From positions 1 to 6,224 of the forward strand of contig CAMLOR010000203.1 of NCBI GenBank assembly GCA_946481615.1: a stretch of DNA of 6,224 bases, in the 5' to 3' direction. This document shows, piece after piece, positions 3,384-6,224 of this stretch (positions are counted from its first letter, which is position 1; the number at the start of each line of letters is the position of its first letter). A program made the position numbers and the translations under genes. This DNA comes from an uncultured Aquimonas sp. GTDB taxonomy: Bacteria; Pseudomonadota; Gammaproteobacteria; Xanthomonadales; Xanthomonadaceae. The notes beneath the pieces are model-generated. The model had not been told where the DNA came from and ran no database searches. It saw only the letters and a program-made list of their open reading frames with translations.

Positions 3384-3749
3384 TCAGGCCTTGAGTTCGA
3401 ACAGCGGCTTGAAGCCGCCCCAGAACATGCGCATGCCGTCGAAGGGCAGCTTCTTCGGATCCATCATCGCGCCCAGGCGCGGATCGGACATCACCTTCTT
3501 GTTGATGCGGTCGCGCGCGGCGCGCGATTTGTAGACGATCCAGGAAAACACCACCACTTCGCCGGGCTTGAGTTTCACGGCTTGCGGGAAGGACGTTTTC
3601 TTGCCCGGTTTGACGTCATCCTCGACGCACTCGATGTAGTGCAGGGCGCCGTGCTCCATCCAGATCTTGCCGGCCTTGCGCGACATCGCCTTGTAGGCGG
3701 CGATGTTCTTCTTCGGCACCGGCAACACGAAACCGTCGACATACGCCAT
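3384..3749 (-). CDS. DUF1428 family protein (YbaA-like)
   Basis: This 121-aa protein matches DUF1428, the family of E. coli YbaA, along its whole length. The start MAYVDGFVLPVPKKN, the middle ALHYIECVEDDV (residues 35-46), the strand GEVVVFSWIVYKSRAARD (63-80) and the ending PFDGMRMFWGGF (102-113) are all typical. The family has a small alpha/beta fold resembling dimeric alpha-beta barrel proteins. Its biochemical function is not established, and I do not assign one. The frame is open for another 41 codons upstream, but those run antisense into the GH44 signal peptide. The chosen ATG has GAGGA 8 nt upstream and starts exactly at the family's N-terminus. It is the first gene of a likely two-gene operon with the App1-like phosphatase 7 bp downstream, and is divergent from the GH44 gene. 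Confidence 0.93.
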   Translation of the reverse strand: MAYVDGFVLPVPKKNIAAYKAMSRKAGKIWMEHGALHYIECVEDDVKPGKKTSFPQAVKLKPGEVVVFSWIVYKSRAARDRINKKVMSDPRLGAMMDPKKLPFDGMRMFWGGFKPLFELKA

Positions 3750-3757
3750 GGCGGATT

Positions 3758-3762
3758 TCCTC
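3758..3762 (-). promoter_or_regulatory. Shine-Dalgarno site fixing the DUF1428 start
   Basis: On the - strand this reads GAGGA, 8 nt before the ATG at 3747-3749. It excludes the 41-codon upstream extension. Confidence 0.8.
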
Positions 3763-3790
3763 GGGTCGGGTGTTCGGAGTCTAGTACGAT

Positions 3791-3806
3791 TCCTCCGTCG
3801 GGAGGA
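3791..3806. repeat. Perfect inverted repeat in the DUF1428/GH44 divergent region
   Basis: TCCTCC-GTCG-GGAGGA is a perfect 6-bp stem with a 4-nt spacer, lying just after the candidate GH44 -10 box and before its Shine-Dalgarno. It could be an operator half-site pair or a hairpin in the GH44 leader. The GGAGG in the right arm is not the ribosome site used, because AAGGAG at 3816-3821 has the correct spacing. Confidence 0.5.
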
Positions 3807-3815
3807 TGCCAGCGC

Positions 3816-3821
3816 AAGGAG
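3816..3821 (+). promoter_or_regulatory. Shine-Dalgarno site fixing the GH44 start
   Basis: AAGGAG lies 7 nt before the ATG at 3829-3831. That ATG also begins a proper signal peptide, so the frame's 42-codon upstream extension (to 3703, antisense to DUF1428) is excluded. Confidence 0.85.
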
Positions 3822-3828
3822 CCGGTTC

Positions 3829-5538
3829 ATGCAACGAGCACTACTTTCCGCGGGCCTGCTGCTGTGCGGCACGGCTCAGGCCGCCACCATCGCCGTGAGC
3901 GTGGACACCACGCAGGACCGGCGCGCGATCGATCCGCGCATCTACGGCGTCAACGATGCCGACGAACAACAACTCGCCATCGGCTACACGGTGAACCGCT
4001 GGGGCGGCAACGCCACCACGCGCTACAACTACACCACCGACGTGAGCAATCGCGGCAGCGACTATTTCTTCCTCAATGTGAATCTCGGCGCGGCGACACC
4101 GCCCGCGCAGTCGAGCCTGAATTCGTTCATCGATCGCACGCTGGGTGCGGGCGCCACGCCGCTCGTCACCCTCGGCACGATCGGGTGGCGTCCGCTCGAC
4201 AACGTGCGCTCGAAGCGCTACGGCTTCTCCATCGCGAAGTACGGGACTCAGCTGGAAAACGGCTGCCCCTTCGATTGCGACGGAGGCAACGGTGAATGCG
4301 ATTCGGCGGTGAACACGACGGTGTATTGTCCGGATCGCCCGGGTTATCCGGATCTGATGGTGCTCAATCAGCCGAGCGACACCTCGTCTTCCTCCGATCC
4401 CGATTGGACCGGCGACTGGGTCGATCACCTGGAAACCCGCCACGCCGCGGCGGTGCATCACTACGCGCTCGACAACGAGCCGATGCTGTGGAATTCCACC
4501 CATCGCGATGTGCACCCGCTGCCGGCCACCTACGACGAGATGTGGAACCAGCGCACCGTGCCTTACGCCACGGCGATCAAGAATGCCGATCCGGCGGCGG
4601 TGGTCTTCGGTCCGGTCACCTGGGGCTATTGCGATCTCTTCGGCTCGGCGGCCGACGATTGCGTGCAGGGTGCGGACCGCGCCGCGCACGGCGGCGTGGC
4701 CTTCGTGCCGTGGTATCTGCGGCAGGTCTGCGCGCACCAGCAGCAGACCGGCCGCCGCCTCGTGGATTACCTCGATCTGCACTACTACCCGCAGGGCCAG
4801 ATCGCGCCGCAGGTGGGCGTGGTCGATTTCGGCGACGGCGCCAACGATGCGAATACGGCCGCGCTGCGCCTGCGTTCGCTCAAGGAACTCTACGATCCGG
4901 ACTGGGTGGCCGAGTCGTGGTTCGCCGATCTGGGCGATTTCGACGAAAACCACTACAGCAAACCGCAGTTCATCCGCCGCGTGAAGGCGTGGATCGCGGC
5001 CGAATGTCCGGGTACCAGGCTCGCCATCACCGAATACCAGTGGGGCTCGGACCACGGCGCCAGTTCGGCGCTGGCGCATGCCGAAGTGCTGGCCATCTTC
5101 GGGCGCGAAGGCGTGGATCTGGCCACGCGCTGGGTGGCACCGGCGAGCGGTTCGCTCGTGGAGCGCGCCTTCCGGCTCTTCCTCGATTACGACGGCAACG
5201 GCAGTCGCGTCGAGGGCACCAGCGTGCGCGCCAGCAGCGCCGACGTCGATTCGCTCGGCGCCTACGCGGTGGATCTGACGAACCAGCGCACCATGATCCT
5301 GCTGTTCAACAAGGACGCCGAAGCCAACACCGCGCAGATCGCCCTGAACGGCACGTACAACGGCGCCTGGCAGCTGTATCGCTTCGATGCCGGCCACGAT
5401 CTGGCGCAGGTGGCGAGCGGCAGCATCGCGGGCAGTTCGATCACCTTGGCGAACCTGCCGGCGCGCAGCGCCAACCTGCTGGTGCTGCCGGCCGGCGTGG
5501 TGCCGGACGGCAGCATTTTCGCCGACGGCTTCGAATGA
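3829..5538 (+). CDS. Secreted glycoside hydrolase family 44 endo-beta-glucanase/xyloglucanase
   Basis: The 569-aa protein begins with a Sec signal peptide, MQRALLSAGLLLCGTAQA, with likely cleavage after Ala18. The mature part matches GH44, which cleaves internal beta-1,4-glucosidic bonds of cellulose-type glucans, xyloglucan or mannan with retention of configuration. Visible hallmarks are RWGGNATTRYNY (57-68), the acid/base Glu217 in YALDNEPMLWNSTH (212-225), DYLDLHYYPQG (313-323) and the nucleophile Glu402 in LAITEYQWGSDHG (398-410). Residues from about 440 to 553 fit the C-terminal beta-sandwich of the GH44 module, including LDYDGNGSRVEGTSV. No carbohydrate-binding module or dockerin is present. 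A four-Cys loop (146-167) looks like a lineage insertion. The chain ends VPDGSIFADGFE, a short acidic tail beyond the catalytic module. It is probably monocistronic and acts outside the cytoplasm. The exact polysaccharide is not predictable. Confidence 0.93.
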   Translation: MQRALLSAGLLLCGTAQAATIAVSVDTTQDRRAIDPRIYGVNDADEQQLAIGYTVNRWGGNATTRYNYTTDVSNRGSDYFFLNVNLGAATPPAQSSLNSFIDRTLGAGATPLVTLGTIGWRPLDNVRSKRYGFSIAKYGTQLENGCPFDCDGGNGECDSAVNTTVYCPDRPGYPDLMVLNQPSDTSSSSDPDWTGDWVDHLETRHAAAVHHYALDNEPMLWNSTHRDVHPLPATYDEMWNQRTVPYATAIKNADPAAVVFGPVTWGYCDLFGSAADDCVQGADRAAHGGVAFVPWYLRQVCAHQQQTGRRLVDYLDLHYYPQGQIAPQVGVVDFGDGANDANTAALRLRSLKELYDPDWVAESWFADLGDFDENHYSKPQFIRRVKAWIAAECPGTRLAITEYQWGSDHGASSALAHAEVLAIFGREGVDLATRWVAPASGSLVERAFRLFLDYDGNGSRVEGTSVRASSADVDSLGAYAVDLTNQRTMILLFNKDAEANTAQIALNGTYNGAWQLYRFDAGHDLAQVASGSIAGSSITLANLPARSANLLVLPAGVVPDGSIFADGFE

Positions 5539-6147
5539 CTATTTGACCAAGCCTTCGGCCTTGAGCGCGGCCTGCACCGCAGGCCGCGCCACCACACGCT
5601 TCTGGAAGGCGAGCAGGTTGGGGAAATCGGAGAGATCGACCTTCACCGCCTTGGCCCAATTGGTGACCACGAACAGATAGATGTCGGCGACGGTGTAGTG
5701 CTCGCCGAGCAGATAGCTGTTGGTGGCGAGGCGCTGTTCGATCAGGTCGTAGCGTTTGCGCAGGTAATCGATCTTTTCCCTGCGCGTCTCTTCGCTGGTG
5801 GCGGAATTGAACAGCGGCGAGTAGTTCTTGTGGATCTCGGAATTGATGTAGCCCAGCCATTCCAGCAGACGGTAGCGCTCCATCGTTCCGGGCAGCGGCG
5901 CGAGGTCCGATTCCGGATGCAGGTCGGCCAGGTACTGCGACACCACCGGCCCTTCGGTGAGGATGGCGCCGTCGTCGAGTCGCAGCGCGGGCACGTAGCC
6001 CTTCGGATTGATGTCGCGGAAATCGCCGCCCGAGGCCATGGCCTTGGTCTTGGTGTCGACCTTTTCCAGATCCAGGCGGATGCCGGTTTCGTGCGCGACG
6101 ATGTGCGGCGCCAGCGAGCAGGCGCCGGGCGCGTAGTAGAGCTTCAT
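5539..6147 (-). CDS. gstA: Beta-class glutathione S-transferase
   Basis: The 202-aa product matches bacterial beta-class GSTs, cytosolic dimers that bind glutathione and conjugate it to electrophiles or reduce peroxides. The N-terminal thioredoxin-like domain (about 1-80) has MKLYYAPGACSLAPHI with the beta-class Cys10, the cis-proline loop NPKGYVPAL (47-55) and the glutathione-binding TEG (64-66). The helical C-terminal domain (about 88-202) has His106 in INSEIHK, the second beta-class signature residue, and LLGEHYTVADIYLF (147-160), the conserved N-capping box region. The length is standard. AAGGGG lies 7 nt before the ATG. It is probably cotranscribed with the truncated upstream gene, whose stop is 12 bp away. 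Its own stop codon directly touches that of the convergent GH44 gene. The physiological substrate is unknown. Confidence 0.95.
   Translation of the reverse strand: MKLYYAPGACSLAPHIVAHETGIRLDLEKVDTKTKAMASGGDFRDINPKGYVPALRLDDGAILTEGPVVSQYLADLHPESDLAPLPGTMERYRLLEWLGYINSEIHKNYSPLFNSATSEETRREKIDYLRKRYDLIEQRLATNSYLLGEHYTVADIYLFVVTNWAKAVKVDLSDFPNLLAFQKRVVARPAVQAALKAEGLVK
5565..5589. terminator. Perfect 11-bp stem-loop inside the gst 3' end, possible terminator of GH44
   Basis: GCGCGGCCTGC (5565-5575), ACC loop, GCAGGCCGCGC (5579-5589) is a perfect inverted repeat 26 bp after the GH44 stop. It lies in the codons for ARPAVQAA of the convergent GST. A smaller imperfect hairpin with a CTTCGG tetraloop core (5548-5563) sits just before it. 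No T-run follows the stem on the + strand, so intrinsic termination would be atypical. The RPAVQAA protein motif is common in GSTs and partly forces the sequence. Confidence 0.35.
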
Positions 6148-6154
6148 CGGTGTT

Positions 6155-6160
6155 CCCCTT
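6155..6160 (-). promoter_or_regulatory. Shine-Dalgarno site of gstA overlapping the upstream stop codon
   Basis: On the - strand the sequence reads TGAAGGGG: the last base of the upstream gene's TGA (position 6160) is the first A of AAGGGG, 7 nt before the gstA ATG. This arrangement lets a ribosome finishing the upstream gene re-initiate on gstA. Confidence 0.75.
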
Positions 6161-6224
6161 CAGTCGAAGTCGTCGCGGAAGATTACACGCGAGTCGAAGC
6201 GCAGGCCGAGGTCGTCGAACAGGA
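6160..6224 (-). CDS. C-terminal fragment of an unidentified protein ending in an IFRDDFD tail
   Basis: Reading leftward from the window edge, the last 20 codons end in LRFDSRVIFRDDFD and a TGA at 6160-6162. Eighteen of these codons end in G or C, so it is very likely real coding sequence. The body of the protein is outside the window and the family cannot be named. Its last residues resemble the end of the GH44 enzyme (SIFADGFE): Ile-Phe-x-Asp-x-Phe-acidic at the C-terminus. If that tail marks exported proteins, this may be another secreted protein (inference). It lies 12 bp upstream of gstA in the same direction. Confidence 0.65.
   Translation of the reverse strand, partial: LFDDLGLRFDSRVIFRDDFD

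Follow-up and report, generated by a model that had tools for sequence, protein, structure and literature searches.

Two genes with similar C-termini

The stretch of DNA analysed here, which we call the window, comprises 6,224 nucleotides of an uncultured Aquimonas sp. (contig CAMLOR010000203.1) and carries, towards its right end, a gene for a GH44 protein and a gene truncated by the window edge, whose products end in SIFADGFE and VIFRDDFD (Table 1). Both C-termini are present as claimed in a preliminary description of the sequence. We confirm the tail as a C-terminal tag of the form D-x-[ILV]-F-x-[DN]-G-F-[DE], usually followed by 0-8 residues. Within one bacterial order, a single genome can encode dozens of unrelated exported proteins with this ending, and the tail may be an undescribed address label of a type II secretion system (T2SS).

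The true start of the GH44 gene is likely at 3829, inside a longer open reading frame (ORF) at 3703-5538, judging from the translation. The relatives of its product that bear names in the protein homologue listing come from Dokdonella, Chiayiivirga, Rudaea and Tahibacter; D. fugitiva belongs to Lysobacterales. The GstA-type gene between the two tagged genes is a neighbour and lies outside the tag system.

Table 1. Features of the right part of the window
Feature	Position	Strand	Basis
GH44 protein, Sec-type signal peptide MQRALLSAGLLLCGTAQA	3829..3882	+	by eye from translation
GH44 catalytic domain, Pfam PF12891, ORF residues 115-364	4045..4794	+	E 3e-59
GH44 C-terminal tag SIFADGFE	5512..5535, stop 5536-5538	+	translation
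GstA-type glutathione transferase	5539..6147	-	NF007831, 241.7 bits, cut-off 198
Right-edge gene, C-terminus VIFRDDFD, probable tag variant	6163..6186, stop 6162-6160	-	translation; IFADDFD and VFADDFE ends elsewhere
Right-edge gene, readable end LFDDLGLRFDSRVIFRDDFD and stop	6160..6222	-	cut by window end

The tag and the proteins that carry it

Tag sites were counted in DNA with a strict pattern, [VILFM]Fx[DN]GF[DE] followed by TRR (the stop codons, with TGG as noise), and the reversed pattern served as the control. Genomes and loci are cited below by our own G and L numbers. A close relative of the GH44 protein lies in four loci, three of them with a strict motif at the end and the fourth with VIYANGFDF. 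The four genomes concerned hold 32, 26, 11 and 8 strict sites and no reversed ones; the two highest counts are those of the Dokdonella genomes G003 (D. fugitiva) and G004. A looser form, [VILFM]FxxxF[DE] before a stop, gave 36 sites in G003 against 3 reversed, that is, the 32 strict ones and IFADDFD, IFTGGFD, IFRSGFE and IFADSFE; this form is noisy in G012, which is AT-rich (125 against 58 reversed). Throughout a sample of the order, the strict motif is found in 95 of 250 genomes (at most 53 sites in one genome) and is lacking in 155, the reversed pattern giving 0-2 sites per genome. In the class sample, 16 of the 273 genomes from outside the order have a match: a single site in 15 of them and two sites in the other. 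The reversed pattern is about equally frequent there (15 genomes). The recurrence noted in the preliminary description is thus an excess over chance within the order and falls to background level in the class sample.

The motif is accompanied by one further conserved residue: D stands ninth from the end in 73 of the 115 distinct tails (119 distinct strict carriers), and none of the other last 16 positions outside the motif is comparably conserved in these carriers. Its place in the protein is also constrained. Among 561 genes neighbouring the tagged ones (about 211,000 residues), FxDGF[DE] occurs 21 times, of which 16 are at most 8 residues from the stop and the remaining five are 18, 21, 37, 54 and 473 residues away; no internal copy was found in 49 strict carriers. 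In three protein families the tag stands exactly at the stop in 170 of 245 cases, and 1-7 residues, mostly one or two, follow it in the other 75. We therefore consider the tag near-terminal and not strictly terminal; the initial wording, a final acidic residue right at the stop, was too strict. Literature searches did not find the tag described in print, but one of them was swamped by unrelated words, and absence from print is unproven.

The right-edge gene, of which 20 residues are readable, likely carries the tag as well. Only LFDDLGLRFDSR stands before the tail ahead of the window end, and position -9 is R, where D is usual. The nearest parallel to VIFRDDFD is IFADDFD, the end of protein L132, which on inspection looks like a delta-60-repeat protein whose start resembles a signal peptide; VFADDFE is the C-terminus at L066. 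As the variants FADDFD, FADDFE, FANSFE, FASGFE and FADGFQ exist, VIFRDDFD is a plausible member. The synteny of the GstA-type gene did not recover the full right-edge gene in 12 genomes (11 with matches, 7 loci read).

The carriers appear to be mostly exported proteins. Signal peptides were called by a home-made heuristic in which the start is chosen by codon usage; it gave a positive call for 36 of the 48 carriers, compared with 123 of the 390 neighbours (odds ratio 6.5, p 1e-8), and by eye several of the 12 carriers without a call have a start placed just behind a signal sequence. An earlier version of the heuristic gave 32 of 49 carriers against 207 of 561 neighbours, and versions scanning 60, 120 and 200 codons gave 27, 34 and 37 of 49 against 105, 138 and 158 of 407. 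The neighbour control is conservative, since it includes further tagged genes with longer tails. The carriers are also diverse: Pfam finds 71 families on 49 of them (25 shown), the most frequent being FG-GAP_2 (5), DUF5122 (4), PD40 (4) and DUF11 (3), and subtilase, M64 and GH44 are among the others. The claim that the tag recurs on unrelated exported proteins is borne out by both the signal peptides and the families. We believe that the tail as a C-terminal sorting signal of exported proteins is well supported.

Choice-of-anchor families were named by NCBI for the swapping of C-terminal anchors. Seven of the 49 carriers have the NCBIfam domain of type Q, two that of type D and one that of type J; no NCBIfam model of the tag itself is among the matches listed for these carriers (25 of 44 families). 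A match to Por_Secre_tail on one of the 49, L080 (E 6e-11), covers residues 796-834 of 1627, within a repeat region and not at the tail.

Within single families the tag is widespread. It is carried by 102 of the best 120 of 7145 GH44 homologues, with 16 variants, and by 103 of the best 120 M12 peptidase homologues listed, with 17 variants. The best 120 FG-GAP homologues listed comprise 40 tagged, 9 variant and 71 not counted as tagged, and at least 12 of the latter are near-variants such as IFADGFGP (60 of 80 non-strict rows inspected). Among the named FG-GAP relatives that lack the tag are records from Planctomycetes and Binataceae, and therefore the tail looks like an add-on in this family. 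The same had been claimed for the GH44 protein, and its AlphaFold2 model (from a row that starts two residues behind the likely start) agrees: the tail is predicted to lie outside the fold, with a mean confidence (pLDDT) of 91 for the model, about 53 on average for residues 561-567, and no secondary structure in the last 15 residues.

A second type II secretion locus

The GspD profile TIGR02517 was run on 31 tag-rich and 31 tag-zero genomes, of which 60 match, 59 of them above the cut-off. A match is present in 30 of the 31 tag-rich genomes, usually as two strong secretins; G186, a genome of 2.5 Mb, has none. A tree of 60 secretins separates a class that we take to be Xps-like, and name so, from a second one, here class S. 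Of the 28 tag-rich genomes whose top-scoring secretin was retrieved, 27 have a class-S secretin there (that of G132 is Xps-like). Two Xanthomonas-like secretins (G090, G065) branch close to class S, yet separately.

The class-S genes are ordered gspC-gspD-gspE-gspF, often ahead of what by eye is an ftsE-ftsX-like pair. At locus L211, GspD and GspF score above their NCBIfam cut-offs, and GspC, at 78 of 101.6, and GspE, at 626 of 630, score below theirs. The class-S GspC combines the T2SSC and PDZ domains in all four cases tested; one was modelled and is predicted to consist of a membrane helix, a beta domain, a disordered linker and a PDZ domain, for which EpsC and PulC PDZ are the best PDB matches. 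In Xanthomonas XpsC a single helix takes the place of the PDZ domain, according to the passages cited from PMC11981180. In seven class-S loci (L200-L203, L207, L210, L215) a gene of about 306 residues, alpha/beta-hydrolase-like by eye, lies between gspC and gspD.

For the 250 genomes of the order, class-S GspC was counted as present above 110 bits of its profile and the tag as present with at least five sites of a pattern admitting G or R at the glycine position. Class-S GspC is present in 112 of them, and the tag in 101 of these 112 against 16 of the 138 others (odds ratio 70, Fisher p 3e-39, a value that ignores ancestry); the median counts are 29.5 and 1. The reversed G-or-R pattern has its maximum, 8 sites, in G196. 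A candidate for the machine that the preliminary description proposed behind the tag is thus a second, PDZ-type T2SS locus of strongly correlated distribution.

The R form had been missed by the strict motif. G013, G033, G041, G048 and G062 were scored tag-zero by it and are class-S-positive, and their choice-of-anchor proteins have ends such as EIFSDRFEQP, AIFSDRFEAP, EIFRDRFEEP, LFSDRFESGG and RIFGSRFD. The R form occurs in 19 of 25 choice-of-anchor loci of these five genomes (2 others are IPTL-like, 3 have no such end, 1 is cut) and in none of 5 in the class-S-negative G036 and G057 (1 IPTL-like, 3 none, 1 cut). The G-or-R pattern without the stop has 43, 18, 80, 10 and 22 sites in the five genomes, respectively, and 0-2 reversed.

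A tree of rpoB was made for 72 of 80 self-chosen genomes, six without an rpoB match, G023 (split) and G056 (partial) being left out. The tag and class S are both absent in three of its clades, three genomes excepted (G234, G160 and G067); our guess is that two of these clades are Xanthomonas-like and Rhodanobacter-like. The third lies within a larger clade that also unites the sampled genomes tagged almost only by the G-or-R pattern (for instance G103, G055, G069, G024 and G123).

What may read the tag

We tentatively favour the reading that the class-S T2SS recognises the tag as a linear sorting signal, perhaps through the PDZ domain of GspC, the reader being inferred. A short linear C-terminal tag would then direct exported proteins to this system. 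The DG or NG (or DR) step between the two Phe residues might form a small turn, or a strand that adds to a sheet of the reader, and the GspC PDZ domain would be a candidate for the latter role. Docking to it is attractive because a GspC PDZ domain is reported to contact substrates (the passages cited from PMC12369372). As further residues may follow the tag, recognition would not require a pocket for the carboxylate of the free C-terminus.

A stronger version adds that FxD[G/R]FE is the first linear, transplantable T2SS signal, read by a dedicated second T2SS via the GspC PDZ domain, and that tag and reader co-evolve, with the G and R forms in different genomes; we consider this version rather unlikely.

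If the class-S reading is true, it contradicts the absence of a linear T2SS signal stated in the passages cited from PMC11981180, PMC7949064 and PMC12369372: there, the choice of substrates is called an unsolved problem for which no conserved linear signal is known, and the reported contacts are made by loops or by Ig/Fn3 folds. How a T2SS chooses its substrates could then be tested by swapping tails and with peptides of eight residues, and a secretome, proteins of unknown function included, could be listed straight from sequence. The tag carriers have points in common with the substrates of a T2SS whose GspC PDZ domain contacts them (OutC/PelI, EpsC/VesB): they are exported, presumably folded, with N-terminal signal peptides by the heuristic counts given above, and a PDZ-bearing GspC is the suspected docking site in both.

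Several observations weigh against the class-S reading. Classical binding of a C-terminus by PDZ is disfavoured, because residues may follow the tag, and the reader could be encoded by some other gene inherited along with it. A regular expression found a pseudopilin-like ORF in none of 31 of the 32 class-S loci, some of them short and the rest of the genomes not searched; the remaining one, L193, has a single hit that is not pilin-like. Three to four pseudopilin genes stand beside 22 of 25 Xps-like loci, and the class-S locus (L188-L213, L215, L223-L227) might rely on the Xps-like pseudopilus or have its genes scattered elsewhere.

The distribution also has exceptions on both sides. Fewer than five tags are found in 11 of the 112 genomes with class-S GspC, most of which have weaker GspC matches; with the G/R residue left free, ten of these 11 give 1-8 hits, similar to the 3-6 hits of four class-S-negative genomes, and the eleventh, G131, gives 15 hits of mixed residues against 3 reversed. 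G234 and G160, in the negative clades, have a weak GspC match and no tags. Conversely, 16 of the 138 genomes without class-S GspC have at least five tags, and pieces of class-S GspD were found in only three of them (G122, G216, G233). Draft gaps are likely in G192 and G213, since both nest beside class-S genomes. G067 has 13 sites and no class S, and its clade is otherwise devoid of the tag and, save G160, of class-S GspC.

Finally, shared ancestry inflates the correlation. A sign test on independent pairs is not significant (median p 0.25): eight such pairs differ in class S, and the tag changes along with it in 2-3 of them, is unchanged in 5-6 and goes the opposite way in none (in one for 4 of 200 pairings).

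These exceptions lend weight to an alternative that we hold to be possible, if less likely, namely that another outer-membrane or surface machine of the order, for anchoring or processing, reads the tag and that class S is merely co-inherited. The phylogenetic confounding, the class-S genomes with few or no tags, the tagged genomes without class S and the choice-of-anchor domains on the carriers all fit it. The joint absence of tag and class S from three separate clades, three genomes excepted, speaks against it, as do the neighbours of tagged genes: when those of 60 loci from four genomes (the only ones covered) were clustered, no family resembling a processing enzyme recurred, and the recurring ones, named by eye, were repeat proteins and kinase-like, ABC-transporter-like and transposase-like genes.

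It is less probable, and in our opinion improbable, that the two roles are divided, the class-S T2SS exporting by fold and the tag acting later, e.g., in retention at the surface or in vesicles. Such two-step use would give the same correlation between tag and class S, and GlyGly-CTERM on VesB is a sorting tag that accompanies T2SS export (in the passages cited from PMC12369372). Against it, an obvious anchor chemistry is lacking, as a transmembrane-like segment (by hydropathy) falls in the last 40 residues of 3 of 119 carriers and Cys in the last 12 residues of 2 of 119.

Very improbable is a structural or stability cap, i.e., a C-terminal hairpin or a protection against tail proteases selected with no dedicated reader: the motif does hold a turn-forming NG/DG step, but its presence is mostly all-or-none between genomes, its carriers have unrelated folds, and the GH44 tail is predicted to be disordered. 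We give hardly any credit to decay of a C-terminal lectin-like domain with the tag as its remnant first strand; FADGFESGDLxxWS presumably resembles the start of such a domain, the tag of GH44 homologue P0094 runs on as FADGFESGDLGRWSQTAP and some R-form tails end in SGN, SGG or SGNAW, but such a continuation is found in 1 of the 120 listed GH44 homologues, and dozens of copies of the conserved motif per genome mostly stop within a few residues.

Among known systems, the PEP-, GlyGly-, MYXO- and IPTL-CTERM tags are similar in being short C-terminal motifs that dozens of unrelated exported proteins share within a genome; they too occur with choice-of-anchor domains and are patchy across genomes. 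They differ in having a transmembrane helix and then a basic cluster behind the motif, whereas the end described here is acidic, seldom has a transmembrane-like segment and may usually be followed by up to 8 residues. No intramembrane protease partner is suggested for it (exosortase, rhombosortase and myxosortase were not searched for). Type I secretion signals go without an N-terminal signal peptide, in contrast to the heuristic calls on 36 of 48 carriers. The C-terminal domains of the type IX secretion system, found in Bacteroidota, are likewise C-terminal addresses on exported proteins; they are folded and about 70-100 residues long, whereas the GH44 tail is predicted to lack structure, and the Por_Secre_tail match on L080, the one such NCBIfam hit among the 49 carriers, is not at the tail.

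IPTL-like ends were also met beside the tag. In the choice-of-anchor Q proteins L256 (G057), L252 (G033) and L271 (G013), an IPTL-like membrane end replaces FxD[G/R]FE, which would be an anchor swap within one domain family. In the window itself, a DUF7933/DUF11 protein (1460-2029, + strand) has the C-terminus IPALSGGILVLLAAAIAGVLLLRIRR, which NCBIfam at 0.001 did not match and which we take to resemble IPTL-CTERM; because of this likeness, the host genome may use two kinds of C-terminal tag.

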